DNA of 64,000 bases from Fragilaria crotonensis (lineage: Eukaryota; Bacillariophyta; Fragilariophyceae; Fragilariales; Fragilariaceae). The notes below the pieces were generated by a model. The model worked only from the letters and a program-made list of their open reading frames with translations. It was not told the origin of the DNA and searched no databases. Numbering within the stretch: the first letter of the stretch is position 1; the number at the start of each line of letters is the position of its first letter. The position numbers were made by a program, and so were the translations under genes. The stretch covers positions 43,782 through 107,781 of the forward strand of contig JAKSYS010000138.1 of the NCBI GenBank assembly GCA_022925895.1. The letters run 5' to 3'. Shown piece after piece: positions 4,695 to 41,309 of this stretch.

Positions 4695-5598
4695 TTAGAC
4701 TCGTCGAACGAACTCTGCGCGAGGATGCAGACCACGATAAAGGTAGAGCGTTCCCGTCAACATGTTAACTTTGACAACTTCTTCTCCATCGTCAGACTTG
4801 ATTCGTTTCGCGCTTTGCTTTGGGGGTGATATACGCCGCTTCTTTAACACATTGGATTCAACGGATCCTGGTGCTGCAACGAGTGATGGGTTGACATCAC
4901 TATCAATTTTGGCCTGACGACGAAGGCTGCGTTGTTCTCGTGCGGCCTGTCTGACCACAGGGACGAAGCTGCTTGGGGCTTCGGCGTGGATCTCAGTGGA
5001 GACTTGAATGTCGGAAAATGAAACAGATTTGTTTTCCTTCTTCTTATCACTCTGGTCGTAGCTCCCCTTTTCATCAGGCTTGTCTCCGTCGTCTGATGAC
5101 ACTGAACTCTTCGATGTTTTCTTGGATTGGATGGAGGAGCTTGATGATATGGACGTACGAACACGACGAGGTGCTTGTCCATGTCCAACAGGTGTACCGT
5201 CTTCGTCTGCGGCCTTGATTAGCTCTCCGAACGCCTTCTCGTAGAGTTCCTCGTCCTTGTGCGGGTGGTCGTCGAAAGTCACCAGCCATCTCGGGTTTGG
5301 AGTTACACCAACTGAAAGCCTGTACGCGAGCCTTCCATGGACGACAGCACCATTGCGAATTATCTTGAGGAGCGATCAAGAAGAGGGATAGTCAGAAATC
5401 GGATTGCGGTACAAGAAATGCCGACCCACTAGGTGCCTACACACTGCTCCGCCTCGAACTGAAATCTGACGCTTCGATGATGTATTGTCGCCCACCCCAA
5501 CTGCTGAACACATTTCTTACCTCAACAACATCACCAACACTGTATGAGGAAGTTTTTTTCCGAGTACCGCGGCTTGAACGGCGGAGTGGAGGTCCCAT
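4695..5598 (-). CDS. Unknown nuclear-type protein, paralog A of a head-to-head pair
   Basis: Two exons: 5598-5521 (26 codons, donor GTAAGA) and 5363-4695 (acceptor CTCAAG), about 248 aa. Family not recognised. The N-terminus is basic (RRSSRGTRKK) and leads into a compact segment, YSVGDVVE then IRNGAVVHGRL and NPRWLVTFDD, whose alternation suggests a small beta-barrel (Tudor/PWWP/chromo-barrel-like; weak inference). Next comes KDEELYEKAFG, a long Ser/Lys/Asp-rich disordered middle, REQRSLRRQAK, and a C-terminal tail with VNMLTGTLYLYRG then RAEFVRRV. The same beginning, intron position, intron phase and tail occur in the divergent gene at 6332-7150. The basic composition fits a nuclear or chromatin role, but function is unknown. 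Confidence 0.75.
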
Positions 5599-6331: not shown

Positions 6332-7150
6332 ATGTCATCCGAGACCGTGCGTAGATCGGCTCGTCGCACGACGAAACAGGTGTCAGCCTACAACGTCGGC
6401 GACGTTATAGAGGTGAGTCTGTCGCATTCGCTTTGTCCCGCGTGATCTTGGGTCAAAATTCCACTGGTTCGGTGTGATTACGCGTTTACACGCCATCCTT
6501 CTGACATTACCATTGTTGGAACGTGTCGACTCTATCAGGTTACAAGAAACGACACAGTTGTCAAGGGAAGGCTTCTTCAGCAACTCTTTGAAGGAAAAAC
6601 TGCAAATCCCCGTTGGCTCGTGGCATTCGTTGATGAGCCATCGTGGAAGGATGAGGAGCTCTATGAAGCGGTGTTTGGAAAGCACTGGCCAAAGGAAACA
6701 GAGGCCCATCCGAAGCCAGCACGATCTCGAAGCAAGCCCCCTGTCAAAGAGTCACAGAAAAAGACTTCCAAGAACGGAATCGTTAAAAACTCACCATCCT
6801 CTGACGCCGAAGCCTCTCACACGTCCAGCATAAAGGAGAAGTCAGTGTCATTCACCGAGACCACTCGCGCTGTTTCCGAAGGTGATTCCTCCCCCAGAGA
6901 GAATCGCTCGGAAAGGTCATCGGCACGAGAACAACGATCGAAACGCCGACACGCTCAGGTTGAGCAGCATGTTGTGGGTCAACCCCAATCTAATCACAAG
7001 AGACCCATGCCCCCTCCAAAGTCCAATCCCGACAACAAGAAATCGCGCAAAGACCAGAATCAAGAAGTCGTCAAAGTGCCAATGCTCACGGGAACTCTCT
7101 ACCTTTATCGTGGTCCAGTTCGACGCGCTGAATTCATTCGACACGTCTAG
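6332..7150 (+). CDS. Unknown nuclear-type protein, paralog B of a head-to-head pair
   Basis: Two exons: 6332-6412 (27 codons, donor GTGAGT) and 6539-7150 (acceptor TATCAG), 230 aa. It mirrors paralog A: basic start (RRSARRTTKQ), YNVGDVIE at the same phase-0 intron position, then RNDTVVKGRL, NPRWLVAFVD, WKDEELYEAVFG, a disordered Ser/Lys/Pro-rich middle, REQRSKRRHA, and the tail VPMLTGTLYLYRG with RAEFIRHV. Only the start and the tail are well conserved between the two, which marks them as the functional parts. Inverted local duplication is the simplest origin. No known family recognised. Confidence 0.78.
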
Positions 7151-8287: not shown

Positions 8288-10492
8288 ATGGTATTGAATC
8301 CAACGCACGCCACGCAAAGTCCGGCCCCGCATCGGCGTTCTGATAATGCCACGGGTGGCCCTTCGCGAGATGATGGAGAATGGACGGACTTTGACTCCTC
8401 ATCTTTCTCGGGCAGTATCAAGCAGAGTCGTAAGAAGGGCACTGATCGAGTTGCGGCAGGAAAGCGTGGAGCGGTCCGATCATCTGCAACATCGTCAGTG
8501 ACACCAAGCTGGATGAAAGCACCCATCAACAGCGATGCCTCTTGGATACCGCTTGCACCTCCTTTAGTTGCAACACAAGTCGATCATAGACTCACTATCA
8601 ACGAACACGAAGGAGATGATGCTCCTCGCGAGGGACCAGAGTTGATAGCTCCGCCATCGCCTGCCGTGCACCGGAGAGCTGCTCGCCAGGAGCAAAATCA
8701 TCATGACGAATATGAGTCCAGGAATGACAAGGAATTAGGCACGATATCATCGAGCTCGCAGTACCCCAGGCGATCTGGGTTGGCGCATGGGGTCGAAACG
8801 CAATCACGCGACAACAATGGAACCCCGGTCCGCAGGGGTCGAACCACTACACGCGTTCCTTCAGAACCTCGACCTCGATCCAACAGTAGATCGAGTCCGG
8901 CGTATATCACTCAAACTCAGGACTCACGGACGAGACCTTCCACTCCAACCGGTAGGGGACGTTCGCGAAGCCACACCCCAGCGGCAGGCAACCGTCCTGC
9001 CCGTATGGCTCTAGCTGAACGTTCACCGGAATTGATCCAAGCAGTTGATACTGGATGCTCAAGCAGTGTCGGACGAAAGCTTCCGAGACCTACCCGCACT
9101 CCCCGTGTGCCAAGGAGCGCCGGCGATGACAGAAGTGTCCGAACCATGGAAAGCGCCCGAACTCTGGATGCCAATATCGGTCGTAACGTCACATTCGGCT
9201 CTTCCTTACCCCCAAAATGTGAAATGTCGCCAATGTCCGCAAGGAAAGAAGGCGGCTTCATGGAAAAACTATTCGGTACACAAGGTGGCGCCGAGGCAAA
9301 AAAGATGTTCCGCAGGGAAAGCTCGTTGACAACGGGCAGTGACGTTTCTTTTCGGCTCCCTCAGCGAATTCATACAAGGATCTTGCTATCGGCCACTGTT
9401 TATCACAATACTGCAACAAATTTATGGATAACCACCATCAACACGAACCAACGAGGCGTCAATACGAATCCTGCTGCAGCATCGAAGTTCCTTAAAGCGT
9501 TCTCCTTCTCGTCTGAGAAAGAAGCCCGCGAGTCTGCGATTGCAAACGCGCCTCCAAAGATGCTTCCATTCAGCGAAAATGAGAACTGCTTCATTTGCAG
9601 TGGAAAGTTTGCCGTCTTCCGACGTCCGAGTCATTGCAGGAATTGTGGGGTGTGTATCTGCAGTGGATGCACGACGACTTGGCCGTCAAGAATGATTCCT
9701 GAGATGTACAATCTCAAGAATGAGACCAATGTGAATATCTGTAATAGCTGTGATTGGCTGAGCTATGCCTTCAAGAAAGCTTTGATCAAGGGGGACATTG
9801 AGGAAATAATCGCACTGTACGGAACTGGAAACATCAACGTGCGATCTCCCTTCCCTGCGGGAAAGAGAGACAAGAAAGGGGAAACCATGCACCCTATTCA
9901 CTGTGCTGTCGAGGGGGGCAACCTCAACGTCCTAAGGTGGCTGCTGGAGGAGCGATTTTGTCCGGTCAAAAGAATTGCAAGCGGAAATGGCAAGCAGAAG
10001 AGAGGAGAAGATATCCCTATTCTTACATCCAAGGGTCGCTCGGTTTTGAGCATTGCAATGACTAATCTCAACGTGGAAATCGTCCGATACTTGGTTATCG
10101 ATAAGAATGTTTCTGTCTACGAAATGAAGGACTTGACCTTGTGTTTGCGTGTTCTTGAGTCTGCGTTAGTGTCGATTCCACGCCGCACTGTTCCGCTGCG
10201 AACCAGGGATATTGTGGCTCGATGGGCAGACGACGGATATGCTGGCGACGTCGCCTCCGACATCTCTGGCAGCATTCATGAGGTCGCAACTCACAATGAA
10301 GAATCCACTTTCGCGGGAAGCCGATGCACCACTGAGGTCGGCGACGCATGCATTATTTGCTATGATAGGGCTATTGATTGTGTCATTACGCCATGTGGAC
10401 ACCAAATCTGTTGTATGGCATGCGCGGAGAATATGAGGAGTTGCCCAGTTTGCAATACAGAGTGTGCATTTATTCGCATCTTCAAACCATGA
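8288..10492 (+). CDS. FYVE-like / ankyrin / RING protein 1 (probable E3 ubiquitin ligase)
   Basis: Single exon, about 734 aa from the ATG at 8288. Residues 1-350 are disordered and Ser/Arg/Pro-rich. A family-specific domain (about 360-430) contains LWITTINTNQ, KFLKAFSFSS and PPKMLPF. A FYVE-like zinc finger follows (about 434-487): CFIC, FRRPSHCRNCG, CICSGC and CNSCDW; it keeps the cysteine pairs but lacks WxxD and the full RRHHCR. Ankyrin-like helices (about 535-607) include HPIHCAVEGGNLNVLRWLLE. The C-terminal RING (687-734) reads CIIC, TPCGHQICCMAC and CPVC and ends in FIRIFKP, as in CARP/RNF34, IAP and MDM2 RINGs, where that tail helps dimerisation. Role inferred: ubiquitin transfer, perhaps on endosomal membranes. 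It starts a three-gene cluster with 12346-15747 and 15894-17160. Confidence 0.85.
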   Translation: MVLNPTHATQSPAPHRRSDNATGGPSRDDGEWTDFDSSSFSGSIKQSRKKGTDRVAAGKRGAVRSSATSSVTPSWMKAPINSDASWIPLAPPLVATQVDHRLTINEHEGDDAPREGPELIAPPSPAVHRRAARQEQNHHDEYESRNDKELGTISSSSQYPRRSGLAHGVETQSRDNNGTPVRRGRTTTRVPSEPRPRSNSRSSPAYITQTQDSRTRPSTPTGRGRSRSHTPAAGNRPARMALAERSPELIQAVDTGCSSSVGRKLPRPTRTPRVPRSAGDDRSVRTMESARTLDANIGRNVTFGSSLPPKCEMSPMSARKEGGFMEKLFGTQGGAEAKKMFRRESSLTTGSDVSFRLPQRIHTRILLSATVYHNTATNLWITTINTNQRGVNTNPAAASKFLKAFSFSSEKEARESAIANAPPKMLPFSENENCFICSGKFAVFRRPSHCRNCGVCICSGCTTTWPSRMIPEMYNLKNETNVNICNSCDWLSYAFKKALIKGDIEEIIALYGTGNINVRSPFPAGKRDKKGETMHPIHCAVEGGNLNVLRWLLEERFCPVKRIASGNGKQKRGEDIPILTSKGRSVLSIAMTNLNVEIVRYLVIDKNVSVYEMKDLTLCLRVLESALVSIPRRTVPLRTRDIVARWADDGYAGDVASDISGSIHEVATHNEESTFAGSRCTTEVGDACIICYDRAIDCVITPCGHQICCMACAENMRSCPVCNTECAFIRIFKP

Positions 10493-12345
10493 GGTCTATG
10501 CTTCAAGGAGCTCTGTCTGCAGAGAACAAGTAGCGTATCCTCTCTGATGTGACGCATTCCATTGGAGTGTTTCATGAGACAACAGATTTTGTCCAAATAA
10601 ACTTACTCCGGCATTTTTAGTGCAGCAGGGCTACCTCTACTACTACTAGGAGTACTTCTAGTAATGACTTAAGCAAGATACAGAGCTTTTGCGCACAGAT
10701 GCTCTCATCATCAATAGTTGCTGGCAGAGTACTTGTACCGCATAGAACGTTATGGTGTGTAGCAAAGTTCGTAACGACCATCCCGTACAACAGCAAAGCT
10801 TGCTTAAGCATGAAGAAACGCGCTTATCGTTGTTTGGTTCAAATGCCGTGCTGAAATGCCTATCATGCACGACCACCTTCCTATAGTACGAATCTCCAGA
10901 GCTCCGCCCACCGTTTCTACAACGGAGGGTGCAATCCAACTTCACCTTGTTCCACAAATGTAGCAGCATCATGCAGTTTTTTTCAAGACATGCTTTACAG
11001 CTTGACCGACCTTCGCGTTATTTTTGTTACATTGCATGATGAGTTGACAGACAAACTGACTTTTTGGGATAGTCAACGGGGTCGATGAGAAGGCGAGTCA
11101 GAGGAAGGAAGGTAAAGCAACCAAACACGTCATCAAACAAGCTGAAGTTGCCTCATCAGCGTCAATGTGCGAATAAAGGTTTTGACTTGAAACAGTACAA
11201 AAGAAGCATGAGGCGAACGCATTCTTCAAGCACTTTGTTTGAGCATGCGACATGGTACTACTCTTGTATTGACTTTCTGTGCTTGGAATTCGTTTCTACT
11301 CCAAGTATTGGTCAGTGTTCTGACACCAGCAGGAGGTTGAGCTCGGATGAGTTGTCATTCGGACTTGGATCCTCCATTATCAAAACAGGAGGGTTCATCA
11401 CCGGTAGATACATTTCAGAGCAGTCTTTTGTGTCTTCAGTGGTCTTGGACCACGACATTGCTGTGGTGGAAACAACAATCCCGTCTACACTGATTTGAAG
11501 CATTGCACTGATTTCGAAGGCCGCACCACTGTTAAATGAAATCCTGATGGGCAGCAGGCACAGTTTGTTTGAAATTGTGGTATCTCGGTGCTTTATTCCT
11601 TATCATTCCCTCGAGCATGATGCGTAATCTAACACTAACTATGCATCCCTGCAATTTTTTCGTTACGTGCCTTCGAACTCGGAATATTACGTATCGTCAG
11701 GTAAAAAGTAGCAGTATTCTTGTTGTTAACCATGGCACATGCACTACGGTTACCAGCCTCGTTGTTCAGACAAGTGCTGTGTGCTATCTTGGCTCTGATC
11801 ACCTTCGTCCTGCCATGAGATGTCATCCGATACACGCGACAATGGAGGATATATCCGATATCTCGGGTATCGCATAGATGACGTCGGTTAGTCGTAGTAC
11901 CGTTACATATTGATACAACGGTACAACGTACTCCAGTACTGTGCGTAAGAATTTGGGCTTACCGTACTATTTGTACAGTATTTGAGTATCAAAGTTGCTT
12001 GTACAGTACGCATGTACTGTAGTGCAATGTACCTTGTACGAGTACTGAAGTATCACGGACACCACAATCTCACCTCGAACCCTTAACACTCTATTCCCCG
12101 GAAACCCTAATCCTGAGATGCTTTAAGTCGTATGCATGTACTTGCATTGTAACGGGTCGAAGTTGGCAGGCCAGAGTGTTGGCCAGTTATCAAGAGTGCA
12201 GACCGAAACAGCACACGCAATACCACGCTCGAGAGGGGGCCCATCGATGAGGGACAGTTTCGATCGAACTACGATCGCTAGAATTGATTCACAGCCATAG
12301 CAAGGAGTCTGAGCTTTCTGAATCAGAGCAATAGATTCTAAGTCG
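10493..12345. other. Intergenic region between FYVE genes 1 and 2
   Basis: About 1.85 kb. A 137-codon ORF at 11085-11498 (+) and its antisense 11312-11503 have no known motif and are not called. From about 11,880 to 12,060 the DNA is a GTAC-rich island (GGTACAACGTACTCCAGTACTG and similar). No transposon ends recognised. Confidence 0.45.
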
Positions 12346-15300
12346 ATGAAACGAAGAAGCGAAATGGACAAGAAACGAAAACCGTCGTCCGCTTCTTCGC
12401 TCCCACCAGCATTATCATCCTCGTCGCAGCACTACCTGACCAATAACGAGGATCTGCAATGCTCATCAACGGGATATTATTTGCATGGAGGTCCTGACGA
12501 AGCACACGCTACCGCAGCATGTGGAGTCCAGGTGGAAGAGTCAGCGGAAGAGGTACTTCAAGCATCGATTAACTTTAGGAACGCACGCTCAAGTAATTCT
12601 TCTTATCTCAGGAATGGAGGGACCGTATACGCCCGAATGTTGTACCCATCCTTGGATGCAACGTCTTTTGACGCTCTTTCAGGAGAAGAGAAGCGAGAGG
12701 AGACAGAATTTGTCACGGTGGGAGCGTCAGCGCTCCCTGACGTAGTCTCTGTTTACTTCGAGGACGACGATCCTGTAACCCGAAAGCTATTGGAAGAAGA
12801 GCGTTTGATGCAGTCTGTGCGAACTGGATCTATGATGACATCCAAGGCGGTAGCGTCCCACGTGGAAGCTGAAGACTCGAAGCCTCCAGCTCAACAAGTT
12901 GCGTACGCATCAGCATATAACGAGGATGAATCTCCTGACGATATAAACCTCGGAGTGAGAGCTGAGTTGGTTGGTGAATCGGACTTCTCGTCGTATCATG
13001 CCTTTTCCTCATCGTCCATGAATGCAGTTGCGATGTCGAACGACGGCATTTTGACAGAGGAAGCGATAGTTCTCGACTCGAAGCCTGCTGCGTTACCGTC
13101 CCGGTGGAGCAATGAATCTGCGGAAGCAACTGTTCTTGGAGATTCCCCGCAAAATGTAGCTGTGTGGACAACACGTCATACAGGAGAAAATCTCGAAGAA
13201 ATAGCAGTGACTGGAAGAGACGAAGCAGAGGCAACGATTGTGGAAATTGCTGAAGACATTCATCCGGCGGATTTAGACTCGGATGGTGTTCAGGCTGAAC
13301 TTATCGGGAGGGATTTCAGCCATGTCGCATCTCATCAAGGACATCAGTCTTGGGACATTTCAGAGCGAAGAGCTGTTGTATCAGAAGTATCGCCTGGGTA
13401 TGCGATTGCGTGCGTAGAAAATGCTGTTGCCGACGAATCAATTCAAGGGACCATTGTTAGCTTCTCTGATGATTTTCACTCGGCTGGTCAAGGCGCATCG
13501 AGCCTGACAGCTCAATATGTTGGTAGGGATTACAGTCAAGGTGACTCGCTGGTTTGGACTGATTCTGATCAGCCTTTCGTGAATTCCGCAAGTCAAGTCT
13601 TTTCGGCGGGGGAACAACACGCAATGGTCGTCGAGATTACGGAAAACCTCCACCCCGCCGACCTTGATGAGCCGGCAGTCCAGGCGGAGTTTGTCGGGCG
13701 CGACTTTAGTCAAGGTGAGCTTCTCGAAGGAAGTCAGGCTTGGGCTGAACCTGCCGGTCGACAGGCGAATGTTGTATTCGACGATTTCGCGGTGGTCACC
13801 GCGTCTAATTTTGATAGAGTAGGTGGTGGCACGGGTAACGTTGAGGCAGATGCAGCTGTTGTGGCGTTCGCTCATGGAATGGAACGCAATGGTCCTAGTG
13901 CGGAACCGGTAGGACGCATTGTTGGGCGTGCTGAGTCGTTTCCGGGAACCCCTCAGCACGCGCATGCTCTGCTGGTATCTCCGGTCGGAATCGGCCACAG
14001 ATCCGTGTCTGCTCCAGGCTGTCACACTCCTTTGGAATATGACCACAACAATCTGACAGCAAGACTTGCCGCAGATACGCACCCGATGAATGCCATGCAT
14101 CCAGTGAAGGAAACGCCCCCACCGATTCCACCGCGTTCTGCAGCTGGACGGGAACTCTCCTATAATAGCAACGGAAGTCAGTTTTCGATGGGTAGCTCTA
14201 ATGGAGAAACCGGGAATGGCGTTCAACAGTCCGCTTCCTCTCGAAGCGCAAGTGCTGGTAGCGTCTCAAACAGCGGAGAGCTCCTATCACAGGCTCAGAG
14301 GGCTGTTAGTCGGAGTAGAGCAAATGTTTTGAGGCACACAAACAATGTCAGAGATCGATGGTTTGGGTGTGATCCAAACAGGACCAACTTTGATTTATCA
14401 CACTCGGCGGGATCGATTCTGTCCAGGACCTTGTTGCCGTGGTCTGTGTTTCCGAGTGAAACAACAGGAATGTGGGTAGCCACTGTCAATACGAACCAGA
14501 AGGCTTTGGATAGCAATGACATTGTGGAAGCGTCGAAAGCTCTCCGAGCGTTCTCAGTTCCGACAAGAGAGCAGGCTGAGGCATTGGCCAGTGCATGGGC
14601 GCCGCCGCGTATGCTTCCATTTGCCAAGAATAGTAGGTGCTTCATCTGCGAAGCCAGATTTGCTGTTTTCAAGCGACCTTGTCACTGTCGAAACTGCGGC
14701 GTGTGCGTGTGCTCTGCTTGTACAGTGCAGTGGCCCTCAAAGATGATTCCCGATACCTACAATATAAAGCAAGAAAGCATTGTAAACATTTGCAAGAGCT
14801 GCGATTGGTTGTGCTCAGCCTTTCGAATGGCGTTACTTGATGGTAATCTTGAGCAGGCCGTTGTCATTCATTCAACGAACAACGTCAATTTAGTGACTCC
14901 CTTCGCAAACGTTAAGGGCGAACTCTTGTAAGTACCGTTGCAGTAATAATCAGAATCGATCGCTGATCCTCACAATTTTCATCCTCAGCTATCCGGTCCA
15001 TTGCGCCGTGCTAGGTGGTAGTCTAGACCTCCTCCAATGGCTTGTGGACACTCATTGCTGTCCATTGCGCTCCATACGTATCAGCGGGAAAACAAGACAG
15101 TCCTCTGGGAGCTTCACTCCGATTTTAACCTCGCGCGGACGTTCGTTGCTTGGGATCGCAATTGAAAAAGAAAAGATTGACCTGGTAAGGTACCTCGTTG
15201 TGGACAAGGGTATGCCTCTTGCAGGAGAAAAGGATTTGAATACGAGCACGCTGATTCGTCTGCTCGACCGGATACTTCGAGAACTCCCGCCATACAACAA

Positions 15301-15747
15301 AAGTGAATTGTTTCCACCCACGTCTCCAAGACCAGGGAAGAATGCTTCTTCCGGAAATATGACACCGGTTCCACCGACGGTTCCACCGACTCCAACTCGT
15401 TTGGGTTCGGTTGCCGATTCCGGCTCAGGTCGGCAATCGGAAGAATCGTGGCGTGCTGATGAGGCCCTCGCCTACGAATTGGCTGAACAAGCACGGCGCG
15501 AACAGGACTCACAAGGGTCTGTCGACGATGCCGTAAGTGGATGAATGATGAAGGAGCATTTGTCTGATTATGTCTAACCTTGTTTCGTTTTCGCCATCAG
15601 TGCATCATTTGCTTCGCCAACTCAATCGACTGTGTGGTCACACCATGCGGTCATCAAATTTGTTGTATGCAGTGCAGCACTAATATCTCTCGCTGCCCCG
15701 TATGCGGTGTGGACTGTTGCTTCATCAAAGTCTTTCGAGCCAACTAG
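12346..15747 (+). CDS. FYVE-like / ankyrin / RING protein 2 with long repeat-bearing N-terminus
   Basis: Three exons: 12346-14927 (donor GTAAGT), 14989-15532 (donor GTAAGT) and 15601-15747 (acceptor CCATCAG), about 1,090 aa. The first 680 residues are acidic and disordered but contain a degenerate repeat of about 60-65 residues: a strand-like start (TIVEIAEDIHPADL, TIVSFSDDFHSA, MVVEITENLHPADL) followed 15-25 residues on by AELIGRDFS, AQYVGRDYS or AEFVGRDFS; a partial copy (AELVGESDFS) lies near residue 205. The C-terminal half has the family domain (MWVATVNTNQ, PPRMLPF), the FYVE-like finger (about 764-820; CFIC, FKRPCHCRNCG, CKSCDW), an ankyrin segment split by intron 1, and a RING encoded by exon 3 (CIIC, TPCGHQICCMQC, CPVC, tail FIKVFRAN). 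Probable E3 ligase; the N-terminal repeat is of unknown function. Confidence 0.85.
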
Positions 15748-15893
15748 GCAGGCTTTACCTAAATGCCGCTCCTGGATGTTGTTCATGTAACTTTTACTTT
15801 GCAAAATGTGTACCTTATTCTACTTGTTGATTAGATTGGCAGTCTCAAGTCCCGGAAGCAGATTCTCCGATGCAAACATCCCCAGTCTCATAT

Positions 15894-17160
15894 TCATTGT
15901 CGAAAGATTTTGAGCGTGTTGCATTCTACGTTACAAAGTGGGCACCTTGTGAGCTTGCTCCCGCAACCGAAGCAGCAAAGTTGATGTCCACATGGGGTCA
16001 TGACACAATCCATGGGATGTTCGAAACACAAGTTGCACTATACGTGAACGATGTGTGTGAGCGACCTTACATGATGCACTAGGCATTGCACGGCCATTGT
16101 CCACACTTACGGCATCATCAATAGTGGCGACAGATTCTTCGGCGAAGCTCTCAACTATGGCAGGCATGTCCGCATTAACTTCTGACGCGTCCCGAGTAGT
16201 AGAAGCCCCGCATCTTAGGAGGGCCTCCAGGGTACTAGTCGCTAGATTTGGATTGCTGGCGTCCTTGAGAGACATATTATGTTTGACGACGAGGTATCTG
16301 AGGATGTCGATCTTTGGCTTGCCAGTCATTGCAAAGTCGATCAACGTGTTGTCGCAAGAAGTTCGAAGACTCAGATTGCGACCAGTCCTAGGATTTCGCT
16401 TGACAGAGATCGGGCATTCGTGTGTCTCCACCAACCATTGAAGGAGCTGAAGGTTCCCTCCTTTGACAGCGCAGTGCACAGGGAACCTAGTCGAAGGCGG
16501 GACGAAAGTTAGTGAAACCTATTGGCTGAAGGAAAGGGGGCATGCGTCGTATCTCACTCACATTGCTTCGTGGTTGATATCTGCGAAGCAAGACCTTAAA
16601 TTCACGTTTCCGGAGGCAAACAACGTCTTTGCGTCTAGTATACTTCCTCCCTTGAGAAGAGTTATACAAAACGAATTGCTTAGCCAGTCACATCTGGTAC
16701 ACACACGGGCAGTGAGCGATTGCTGTGAAACGTAGGTCTTCGGTAGCATGCGAATTGCCCACCTAGTGCTGCACTTGTCACAAATACAAACCCCGCAATT
16801 CCGACAGGAACATGGTCGACATTTAGTGGTGTAGCGGACTGCACAAATATGACAAGTTTCAGTGAAAGGATGCATCTTGGGGGGAGAGTAGGCCTTTGCA
16901 AACTTCTTTGCTTCAATTTCTGAGGCGAATTTAAAATACATGGTTCTCGATTGGGTGATACCTGTTGGCTCTGTTCGCTCGTGACGTGAGATTGTTGCAA
17001 CCCAGTGCCTCGTCATTGTGTTGAAGTGAACAGAATATGGCTCCAACGTACGCCGCTGGACCCCCTCCGGCATTAACGAAACATCAAAGCGCGTCGACAC
17101 AGGAGCCATTTTTGGTGTTGCATAAGCTGTCTGGAGAGGAAGCGATGGACGTTGGTGCAA
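15894..17160 (-). CDS. FYVE-like / ankyrin / RING protein 3, short form
   Basis: Three exons: 17160-16562 (donor GTGAGT), 16486-16111 (donor GTAAGT) and 16037-15894 (acceptor CGTATAG), about 372 aa. Intron positions and phases match gene 2 (after the ankyrin entry and before the RING). It lacks the long N-terminus. Visible parts are the family domain (HWVATISRHE, PPKMHPF), a FYVE-like finger (CHIC, CRPCSCRNCGVCICDKC, CTRCDW), an ankyrin segment (HCAVKGGNLQLLQWLVE) and a C-terminal RING in exon 3: CNLC, TPCGHQLCCFGC, CPLC, ending LKIFRQ. Without exon 3 the gene looks as if its RING were lost. It is convergent with gene 2, their stops being 147 bases apart. An ORF upstream to 17404 might add a 5' exon (weak). 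Confidence 0.8.
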
Positions 17161-37246: not shown

Positions 37247-40200
37247 ATGCCTGTAATCTCGAGCGCGCGACGTGCTGGCACCCACCAATTATATTCCCAA
37301 CCGACAACCCCAGGGCAACTTGGCACCAATGAAATCGATAATCATGCGGACACCATTTGTGCCGGACCTAATTGGCGTTTGCTCGAACTCACCGGCGAAT
37401 ATTGCACTGTTGCCCCTTTTTCCTCTGATTACTCTCCCAAACCGGATATTCCGATCGCGCGATGTGCCACCACTTACACATGCCCAGCGAACGGCGACTC
37501 TGTTGTTCTCGTTGCCGATCAGGTCCTTGGGTTTGGAAACGACCTCCATTGCTCTCTGATTAATCCTCACCAGATTCGCGCAAATGGTCACGGTGTTTGC
37601 GATGACCCCTGGTGGGACCCCAATCGAGACCTTGGAATCACACTTGATCACTTCTTCATCCCTCTCACCCTTTCAGGACCAAATTTGATTTTCGAATCCC
37701 GAGTGCCGACTGATTGGGAGTTAGAGAATCTTGCTCTTATCGAACTCACCTCTAACATCTGGAACCCGGCTGACATGCACATACTTGCATCGCACTCTCA
37801 CACGCCCCGTCGTCACGCTGCAACCGTTTCCTCTGCCATACAACGTACCGTTTTGTCGGAGTCCGCAACGCTATTATCCACTATCTCGTGTGCACTTGAC
37901 CCCCGTTGTCTTTCTGCTCTCTACACACAGGCGATCACAGTCCTGAATGACGCGCCTACGGGGACAGTACATGGTATAGGCGCAACATTTTCAAGCAAAC
38001 GGCATTCGAGTATCACCGCCGAGACCCTGAGCCGCAAATGGAACATTGGGATTGACACGGCGAAAAAGACACTACAAGTTACGACGCAACGTGGAATTCG
38101 CACTGCAGTGCATCCGTTACATAGGCGGTATCGTGTCGATCACCACCTGTATCTGAATCGTCGACGCCTTAACGGCAACTGGTTTACGGACACTCTGTTT
38201 TCTAAGGTAATATCTATCCAAGGTAATGTATGCGCGCAGGTCGTTACAAATGGGCAATTTACAACTGTACACCCCATGGAATCAAAATCAAAGTTGCTCA
38301 CGTGTTGACCGAATTTGCGGATGATGTCGGTATTCCTGACTCGTTGCTTTCTGATGGCGCACCTGAAATCGTTGGACCGAGAACGGACTTCATGAAGGAG
38401 GTAAATCTACTAAAGATTCGGCTGAGACGCTCAGAGGTGGGACGATCGAACCAAAATTATGCCGCCGAACGCGAGATCGGCGAGTTGAAAACGCTGGCGG
38501 AATCGAATGCTCAAACGCAAGGTTCCCCCTCGATTGTGGGATTATGGTCTCGTTTATGAATCTAACATTCTCAACAGAATCCCGCGTGGCTCCCATCAGA
38601 GGACGGGTTTAGAAATGGTAACCGGTGAAACTCCGGACATCTCGAATGGTTGGATTTCGAATTCTACGACAGGGTTTGGTTTACGATCAGAAGAAAATTG
38701 AGATCGATGGCTCCGGTCGACGTCTTGCGCGATGGCTCAGGTTGCTCATCGGGTCGGCAGCGACCTCTGTTATTGGCTCCTCCTCGAATCCGGTAAGATA
38801 ATCGCTCGTACGACAGTACAACACGTCGTCCGGACGACTATGTTAATGAGGATACGAAATTGGAAATTGAACGTTTCGATCAAGCCGTTGAGGAACGTTT
38901 GTCAGATCAGATTTCATAATACATGAGCCAAGCGACTTTTACATACAGGACGAATACACCAACATTGGCGTTTCCTATACTAATGACAAAGATTACGACG
39001 ACATGAATGTGCCCGACGCGATGGAGGCCGACGACTTGGACAATGAGATCACGGATAAGTATTTGAATGCCGAATTAATTTTTGATGTCGGAACTGGAAG
39101 TGAACGAAAAGGGCATGTCGTTAAACGTGCCAAAGGAACCTCTGGTGAGCCAATTGGTCGTGCCCATACTAACCCCCTCTTTGATACTCGGGAGTATGTC
39201 GTTGAATTTACGGACGGCACTACCGAGAACTACTTCGCCAACGTAATTGCAGAGTGTATGTACGCACAAGTTGATTCGGAAGGGCGACAATTTCAATTAC
39301 TACAGGAGATCACTGGACAATTCTGCTATTTCTGTAGCGAACGGTTTCGTGACAAGCAGGAATGGCAACCGGATCCCGAAAGTTACCACACGCGGTTGGT
39401 CCCTCCTGGTCACATGGAAGGATGGGTCATCCGATTGGATACCGTTGAAGGACATAAAAGATTCGTATCCGGTACAAATAGCTGAATATGCTGTGACTAA
39501 CAATATTGCTCATGAGCCGGCATTTAACTGGTGGGTTCACACTGTCTTGCGGAAAAGGAATCGGATTGTGGCAAAAGTGAAGAGATATTGGAGAACGACA
39601 CACAAGTTTGGTATACGCCTGCCCAAGTCCGTGGAAGAGGCGCTTGCGATTGACGAAGAGACTGGTACTGACTACTGGCGCAAGGCATTAGGTAAGGCAA
39701 TGAGCAAAGTCAAAGTTGCATGGAAGCCGATGGATGGAGTGACGCCTACGCAGGCACGGACCGGGAAAGAACCAGGTCTGATTGGATTTCAGGAGATACG
39801 TTGCCATATTATTTTTGATATAAAAATGGATTTCACGCGCAAGGCACGGTTCGTCGCAGGTGGACATACGACGGATACTCCGGGCTCGCTTACATATTCA
39901 AGTGTCGTCTCACAAGACAGCGTGAGATTGGCATTTTTGATTGCCAGGCTCAACGATCTTGATGTTTTGGCCGGCGATGTTACGAACGCTTATTTAAATG
40001 CAGCTTGTCGTGAAAAGATTTGGTTTGAGGGCGGCCTTGAAACTGGGGCAGACCAGGGTAAAGTATTGATCGTTACGCGCGCGTTATACGGGTTGAAGTC
40101 GTCCGGTGCCGCGTGGAGAGCGGATTTAGCAGCAACACTGCGTGACTTGAATTTTACGTCTACCAAGGCTGATCCGAATGGGTGGATCCGGAGTGCTGAT

Positions 40201-41309
40201 ACTCATTATAACATGGTCCTCGTTTACGTTGATGACATTTTGATATTCGCGAAAGACCCAAAGGTAACTATGAACGAATTGGGTAAGCTTGAAACCAGAA
40301 AGTGGTAAAGAGCCAGAAATTTATCTGTGCGCGAACATGGAAAAGGTACAATTGCCTAACGGTAAGCTCGAATGGTCTATGGGAAGCAAAACGTATGTCA
40401 AGAATGCCGTGAAGGTTGTTGAGGCTCTCATTGTGGAAGACGACTCAACGGCGACGTTGAAAACGACTGCACGGAATCCTTTTCCGAGCGGCTATAAACC
40501 CGAATTGGACATTACCCCCGAATTGAACGACGAGCTGGCAGCGCGATTCTTACAACTCATTGGGATATTGCGATGGGCAATCGAACTGGGCCGCATTGAC
40601 ATTTTTGTCGAAGTCTCACAAATCTCACAGCATCAGGCAATCCCACGGAAGCGACACCTTTAAGCAGTTTACCACATATTCGCATACCTTAAGAAACATG
40701 AAAATGGCGCGCGGATTGTTTTTGATCCGAAGACCCCGATTATCGATGAACGCGTATTCCGATCTGATGCAGACTGGAGCAATTTTTACGGGGACGTGAG
40801 CGAAGAGCTACCGCCGAACATGCCCGAGCCAAAAGGAAAGAGTGTATGTATCTCATGTTTCGTGGATGCCAATCATGCCGGAAATGTTATTACTCGACGA
40901 TCGCATACGGGGATCCTTGTTTACGATCAGAATGCTCCGATCCTCTGGTTTTCCAAACGTCAAAATACCGTCGAATCTTCCAACTTCGGTAGTGAATTCG
41001 TTGCTTTACGAACGGCGAAGGATATGATCGTGGCTTTGCGGTATAAACTCCGCATGTTTGGAGTCCCAATCGATGGTCCAGCGAATGTTTTTTTGTGATA
41101 ATAACGGCGTCGTGAAGAATACAACAATCCCAGAGTCGATGTTGGCCAAGAAGCACAATGCCATAAATTACCACGTTATTCGTGAGGCAGTTGCGGCGAA
41201 AATTCTTCGAGTCGGTAAGGAGGATGGAATGACAAATCTTGCTGATCTGTTTACGAAAGTCTTGACCTCGGATCGGCGACGTGCACTTTGTCGGCACATT
41301 ATGTATTGA
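37247..41309 (+). pseudogene. pol region (protease, integrase, reverse transcriptase, RNase H) of the copia element
   Basis: Protease: NEIDNHADTICAG near 37,335 (catalytic Asp in HADT). Pre-integrase and integrase: RKWNIGIDTAKKTLQVT, HRRYRVDHHLYLNRRRLNG, then DSLLSDGAPE near 38,340 after a frame change at about 38,230-38,300, and further pieces to about 38,930. Reverse transcriptase: 39,490-40,300 with KARFVAGGH, SVRLAFLIARLNDLDVLAGD, RALYGLKSSGAAWR and YVDDIL (40225-). RNase H: CFVDANHAGN (40,856), ILWFSKRQNTVESSNFGSEF, and DLFTKVL near 41,250. At least five frame shifts separate these blocks. Confidence 0.85.

Follow-up and report, generated by a model that had tools for sequence, protein, structure and literature searches.

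Three neighbouring genes with a shared domain order

Three protein-coding genes lie side by side between positions 8288 and 17109 of a 64,000-nucleotide stretch of the genome of the diatom Fragilaria crotonensis (contig JAKSYS010000138.1, positions 43,782 to 107,781; this whole stretch is called the window below, and coordinates are those of the window unless another locus is named). Each of them encodes, in the same order, an upstream module predicted to fold as three strands and a helix (βββα), a FYVE-like finger, an ankyrin region and a C-terminal C3HC4 RING that ends in a basic-x-Phe tail. A first-pass annotation, made from the letters of the DNA alone, had proposed this order, and Pfam scans together with our gene models bear it out, with the ankyrin region scoring below threshold in genes 2 and 3.

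8288..10492, plus strand: gene 1, single exon, 734 amino acids
12346..15747, plus strand: gene 2, exons 12346-14927, 14989-15532 and 15601-15747, 1090 amino acids
15894..17109, minus strand: gene 3, exons 17109-16562, 16486-16111 and 16037-15894, 355 amino acids

Genes 2 and 3 are convergent, tail to tail, with a gap of 146 base pairs (bp). Gene 1 is intronless and the other two have two introns each, with stop-free spliced models. All four predicted introns are GT-AG (61 and 68 bp in gene 2, 75 and 73 bp in gene 3); the splice sites are predictions, without RNA support. Both intron positions are common to genes 2 and 3, falling in identical alignment columns and in identical phases (phase 2 for one, phase 0 for the other), which is good evidence for common descent as well as for the gene models. 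Core identity is 46% between genes 1 and 2, 41% between genes 1 and 3, and 40% between genes 2 and 3. The reading frames look maintained and not the product of chance, because likeness among the three is highest at second codon positions (0.64-0.67) and lowest at third positions (0.31-0.35); synonymous divergence (dS) by the Nei-Gojobori method (NG86) was not computable. Given equal rates, genes 1 and 2 would be sisters, and gene 1 would have lost both introns.

The span first assigned to the cluster, 8288 to 17160, holds at its start; 17160 is the open end of the first frame of gene 3, in which the earliest ATG downstream of the stop lies at 17109. The lone TAG in the six-frame RING match of gene 3 is an intron acceptor and no sign of a broken gene. 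Ahead of the shared core, genes 1 and 2 have unlike N-terminal regions (best blastp E 2.3), and the long N-terminal region of gene 2 contains, within residues about 200-530 (12943-13935), GRDFS/GRDYS-like repeats at 321, 393 and 451, with a weaker one at 210.

The proposal of a local expansion also stands, as the unit of module and finger was found genome-wide only in these three genes. Both the upstream module and the first exon of gene 3 (at E <= 10), used as genome queries, found three places, all inside the trio. The core of gene 1 gave 12 matches at E <= 1, seven in the trio and five weak, partial ones elsewhere, over finger, RING or ankyrin stretches, and no fourth copy of module and finger was found in the genome searches. 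Relatives were also sought in collections of viral and prokaryotic contigs and none was confirmed, an absence that the scope of those collections makes weakly informative.

An upstream module without a family name

9359..9577, plus strand: upstream module of gene 1, predicted βββα, no Pfam family
14404..14625, plus strand: upstream module of gene 2, 43% identical to that of gene 1
16852..17064, minus strand: upstream module of gene 3, 31% identical to that of gene 2 (E 4.5e-4)

The conserved domain noticed at first pass ahead of the finger proves to be a module of about 65-75 residues, common to all three genes, with 16 invariant alignment columns and no name in Pfam (best E 0.18) or NCBIfam (best E 0.13). 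Structure prediction, as then suggested, was run with AlphaFold on the three sequences and yields a βββα fold with a mean predicted local distance difference test (pLDDT) score of 70.1. By ten-residue blocks, pLDDT is 81 and 87 over strands one and two, 64 at the start of the third strand, and 91 over its end and the helix. PDB chains searched with a profile built from the module gave no match at E <= 10, and Foldseek names no relative: its best row, 2jya, was not accepted as kin (E 0.19, probability 0.87, root-mean-square deviation 5.3), and the EVH1 domain of ENAH appears at E 2.2-2.9 with a probability of 0.05-0.06. A PH/EVH1-like fold would fit a further match, that of the PH-FYVE protein FGD5 to genes 1 and 2 across the finger and about 25 preceding residues, a score that may rest on the finger. 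An AP2-like reading, prompted by the βββα order and a W...F...EA pattern, was dropped as unsupported: PF00847 has no match genome-wide at E <= 1, the best Pfam match of the module (E 0.18) is to a different family, and the best 50 of 206 Foldseek rows include no AP2 chain.

FYVE-like fingers that have lost much of the lipid site

9569..9751, plus strand: FYVE-like finger of gene 1, PF01363 at 7.8e-10, above cut-off
14623..14805, plus strand: FYVE-like finger of gene 2, PF01363 at 2.6e-7, above cut-off
16690..16860, minus strand: FYVE-like finger of gene 3, PF01363 at 1.4e-4, 22.3 bits against a cut-off of 27.8, with the most degenerate RRHHCR region

All eight FYVE cysteines are retained in each finger, and two of the three, those of genes 1 and 2, exceed the Pfam cut-off. 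As first noticed, WxxD is in none of them, PPKMLPF-like letters standing at its place, and much of RRHHCR has gone: the region reads RRPSHCR, KRPCHCR and CRPCSCR in gene order and is incomplete throughout. The second basic residue has become proline and the first histidine has been lost in all three; what remains is the first arginine, the second histidine and the last arginine in genes 1 and 2, and two arginines in gene 3, which is also the only one with an RVC motif. For comparison, six further FYVE matches were found in this genome, and three of them show the full RRHHCR motif. Judged from the residues lost, it is doubtful whether the fingers of the trio bind phosphatidylinositol 3-phosphate (PI3P) with normal strength. 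Among solved structures the closest chains are ordinary FYVE domains: WDFY3 and Vps27 to the finger of gene 1, ZFYVE19 and WDFY3 to that of gene 2, and Hrs to that of gene 3.

It could be that the trio encodes endosomal FYVE-RING ligases of the kind of Pib1, RFFL or Upa1, in which the finger binds PI3P and the ligase marks membrane cargo at endosomes. The scores of genes 1 and 2 and the partly kept RRHHCR, along with the RVC of gene 3, agree with such a role, as do reports that the FYVE-like domain of RFFL binds PI3P jointly with palmitoylation (PMC12211564) and that Upa1 of Ustilago maydis reaches endosomes through its FYVE domain (PMC4466420). However, the loss of WxxD, of the second basic residue and of the first histidine affects every finger, and we consider an endosomal ligase of this type unlikely. 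We picture the finger instead as a two-zinc module with much of its PI3P pocket lost, which might serve as a scaffold or make weak membrane contact.

RING domains with a dimer-type tail and no arginine linchpin

10343..10489, plus strand: RING of gene 1 with tail FIRIFKP, PF13920 at 1.1e-9, XIAP at 1.2e-8
15524..15744, plus strand: RING of gene 2 with tail FIKVFRAN, PF13920 at 5.5e-7, MEX3C at 1.1e-6 and XIAP at 2.9e-6, split by intron 15533-15600
15897..16119, minus strand: RING of gene 3 with tail LKIFRQ, PF13920 at 6.8e-8, BIRC3 (cIAP2) at 3.5e-6, split by intron 16110-16038

The family zf-C3HC4_3 (PF13920) is above cut-off in all three proteins, the eight C3HC4 zinc ligands are complete at the spacing of the family, and the first CxxC keeps a hydrophobic residue (I, I and L). 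The closest solved RINGs are those of XIAP for gene 1, BIRC3 for gene 3 and, for gene 2, MEX3C with XIAP close behind; the gene 1 model superposes on XIAP at 1.9 Å and on IDOL at 1.8 Å. All three tails are basic-x-Phe (R-I-F, K-V-F and K-I-F), followed by two or three residues, and the first-pass description of an inhibitor of apoptosis (IAP)-type RING with its tail is upheld. No BIR domain, the mark of the IAP proteins themselves, was found by Pfam at E <= 1 in the three proteins. In cIAP1, Arg614 and Phe616 of the tail act in trans on the donor ubiquitin of the partner, and the F616H mutant is defective (PMC6349121). The RINGs of the trio are probably dimeric as well, either as homodimers or as heterodimers among the three proteins, and the basic-x-Phe tail of one RING would then pack against the donor ubiquitin held by its partner.

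Directly after the last zinc cysteine, at the linchpin position, the trio has Asn, Gly and Asn, and arginine in none. The first-pass annotation mentions neither this nor the introns common to genes 2 and 3. The linchpin residue tunes RING activity, arginine being the most effective in work on RNF38 and XIAP, and XIAP itself has Tyr485 there and reduced activity (PMC12326332). An arginine linchpin does not define IAP/IDOL-type RINGs, since XIAP is without it too. Because the trio has Asn, Gly and Asn in place of arginine, its ligase activity is likely to be low, or dependent on a partner or substrate, as in XIAP.

The same position invites a different interpretation, that the proteins are non-catalytic adaptors whose RING merely pairs them, like that of MDMX, while ankyrin and finger act as they do in the ankyrin-FYVE (AF) adaptors of oomycetes. 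AF proteins can serve as adaptors, PsAF5 being one that acts in mitophagy (PMC10912746), there are RING heterodimers in which one partner is inactive (PMC12326332), and the RING of Upa1 was dispensable under the conditions tested (PMC4466420). But the zinc ligands, the hydrophobic residue of the first CxxC and the tail phenylalanine are kept in all three genes, as one would expect under selection for activity, and a purely adaptor function seems to us improbable.

A further suggestion was kinship with animal CARP1/2 (RNF34/RFFL), such that the trio would be their orthologues with an ankyrin insertion. A FYVE-like finger and a C-terminal RING on one chain do recall these proteins. The finger and RING matches point elsewhere: there is no chain named CARP or rififylin among the solved-structure matches of the gene 1 finger (14), the gene 2 finger (13) or the whole gene 3 protein (23), in a library whose content of such chains was not checked, and the matches of the RINGs are to IAPs, MEX3C and IDOL. 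In CARPs, SAP-like helices separate the finger from the RING; in the trio no SAP family was found by Pfam at E <= 1, and ankyrin occupies that stretch. We regard orthology with the CARPs as very improbable indeed.

The ankyrin region

9860..10108, plus strand: ankyrin region of gene 1, Ank_4 at 2.2e-6 above cut-off and Ank_2 at 6.3e-6 just under it, with Foldseek ankyrin matches
14833..15211, plus strand: ankyrin region of gene 2, sub-threshold Ank_3, Ank_4 and Ank_2, split by intron 14928-14988
16282..16584, minus strand: ankyrin region of gene 3, sub-threshold Ank_5 at 6.2e-4, split by intron 16561-16487

Ankyrin and FYVE occur on one chain with both above cut-off in gene 1, with ankyrin below it in gene 2, and with both below it in gene 3. 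The ankyrin part of the modelled gene 1 core draws designed as well as natural ankyrin chains in Foldseek.

A model for the trio

We lean, with modest confidence, towards the view that the trio encodes paralogous single-subunit RING ligases of the IAP/IDOL type, with ankyrin repeats for substrate docking and doubtful PI3P binding, as read from their sequences. Substrate would be docked by the ankyrin repeats, and perhaps also by the βββα module. Several observations weigh against this view. An ankyrin family exceeds its Pfam cut-off in gene 1 only, and the gene 1 core was modelled with poor overall quality (mean pLDDT 52.8), no Foldseek row reaching E 0.001. The best PDB match of the gene 2 RING, MEX3C, is no IAP. 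The tail phenylalanine lies 10 residues past the last zinc cysteine in the trio, against 11 residues in XIAP and cIAP1. Finally, the missing arginine at all three linchpins could mean that there is little activity.

It is tempting to speculate further that this is a diatom- or stramenopile-specific family in which three neighbours, all lacking the linchpin arginine, are active only when their RING tails pair them, and in which the unit of βββα module and FYVE-like finger has turned to a non-lipid ligand. We think this quite doubtful.

FYVE and RING domains elsewhere in the genome

The 62-Mb assembly contains at least nine FYVE matches, three of them in the trio; for Phytophthora sojae, 272 FYVE proteins are reported. 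The six others comprise one with TCP-1 (Fab1-like), one with WW, a short one, two near-identical ones that follow long frames, and an ankyrin-FYVE frame. No RING family was found at E <= 0.01 in the scanned frames of these six, two of which have a sub-threshold IBR, and neither FYVE nor ankyrin at E <= 0.01 in the 10 frames scanned from 22 RING matches outside the trio; these scans used single-exon frames, so that a partner in another exon would escape.

The ankyrin-FYVE frame (L031:4041-5888, minus strand) also matches synaptobrevin weakly at its C-terminus (8.9e-5, below cut-off), an unusual combination that resembles membrane-fusion proteins. At two very similar loci (L029:1965-4480 and L030:2168-4656) a long frame, in which IQ and ankyrin were seen at L029 alone, precedes a FYVE frame, and these are probably myosins with ankyrin and FYVE tails. 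Two similar frames (L001:364-1647 and L003:340-1647) have a C-terminal RING, that of L001 also having an N-terminal ubiquitin domain.

The genome has 61 light-harvesting matches and 19 matches to silicon transporters, 18 of them above cut-off; such transporters are found in some chrysophytes and choanoflagellates as well. These counts, with the low number of FYVE matches, make a diatom the most likely source, and on the same grounds an oomycete origin was rejected. Three of the transporter matches share one frame of 1456 codons (G000:C97:29749-33762, its last part being the L025 match), a fused multi-transporter. Just upstream of the trio, two head-to-head frames (4698-5375, minus strand, and 6446-7147, plus strand) are 41% identical (95/232 columns), a second local duplication, and have no Pfam family at E <= 0.01. 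Farther along the window, a reverse-transcriptase frame (39247-40305, plus strand; RVT_2, 5.5e-19) is a piece of a copia-like mobile element.

Comparison with known systems

Having set out the domains, we can ask how far the trio departs from proteins already described. The closest in content is Upa1, in which one chain carries a FYVE domain, a C-terminal RING and five ankyrin repeats (PMC4466420). Its ankyrin repeats apparently come ahead of FYVE, because FYVE and RING together lie within amino acids 1048-1287, whereas the trio has FYVE, ankyrin and RING; it is the published description that sets the two apart. Upa1 also differs in having PAM2 motifs and a FYVE domain that works on endosomes (PMC4466420). 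Yeast Pib1p and RFFL/RNF34 (CARP2/1) likewise have a C-terminal RING on the same chain as a FYVE or FYVE-like finger (PMC4466420; PMC12211564), but Pib1p and rififylin are described as being without ankyrin repeats (PMC4466420).

From the side of the RING, the likeness is to XIAP, cIAP1/2, BIRC7 and IDOL/MYLIP, in RING sequence and modelled fold, and in a basic-x-Phe tail like that of cIAP1. These proteins carry BIR or FERM domains in place of finger and ankyrin, and in alignments cIAP1/2 have arginine after the last zinc cysteine and XIAP tyrosine, where the trio has Asn, Gly and Asn. From the side of the finger, ankyrin is found with FYVE in Rabankyrin-5 and in AF proteins such as PsAF5. Surveyed counts of AF proteins are 10-12 in typical oomycetes and 4 in the diatom Nitzschia inconspicua; PsAF5 and PsAF6 have TPR as their third domain, and the main text of that study does not mention a RING (PMC10912746). 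Both Ank and zf-C3HC4 figure among the partner domains of FYVE in a published survey (PMC2837644).

The joining of ankyrin with FYVE and RING had at first been taken as new. The set of three is known from Upa1 (PMC4466420), while the order FYVE-ankyrin-RING looks new: we found no description of it in the open-licence literature, searched mainly by titles and the openings of abstracts. Two further features seem to be new, the module that Pfam does not name and the pairing of a dimer-type tail with a linchpin other than arginine. The trio is a variant of the FYVE-RING ligases and no new kind of system. Ubiquitin ligases of diatoms are, to our knowledge, little studied, and in these three genes we now have the means to ask whether FYVE-RING fusions have arisen more than once, with ankyrin differently placed, and how a dimer-type RING works without an arginine linchpin.

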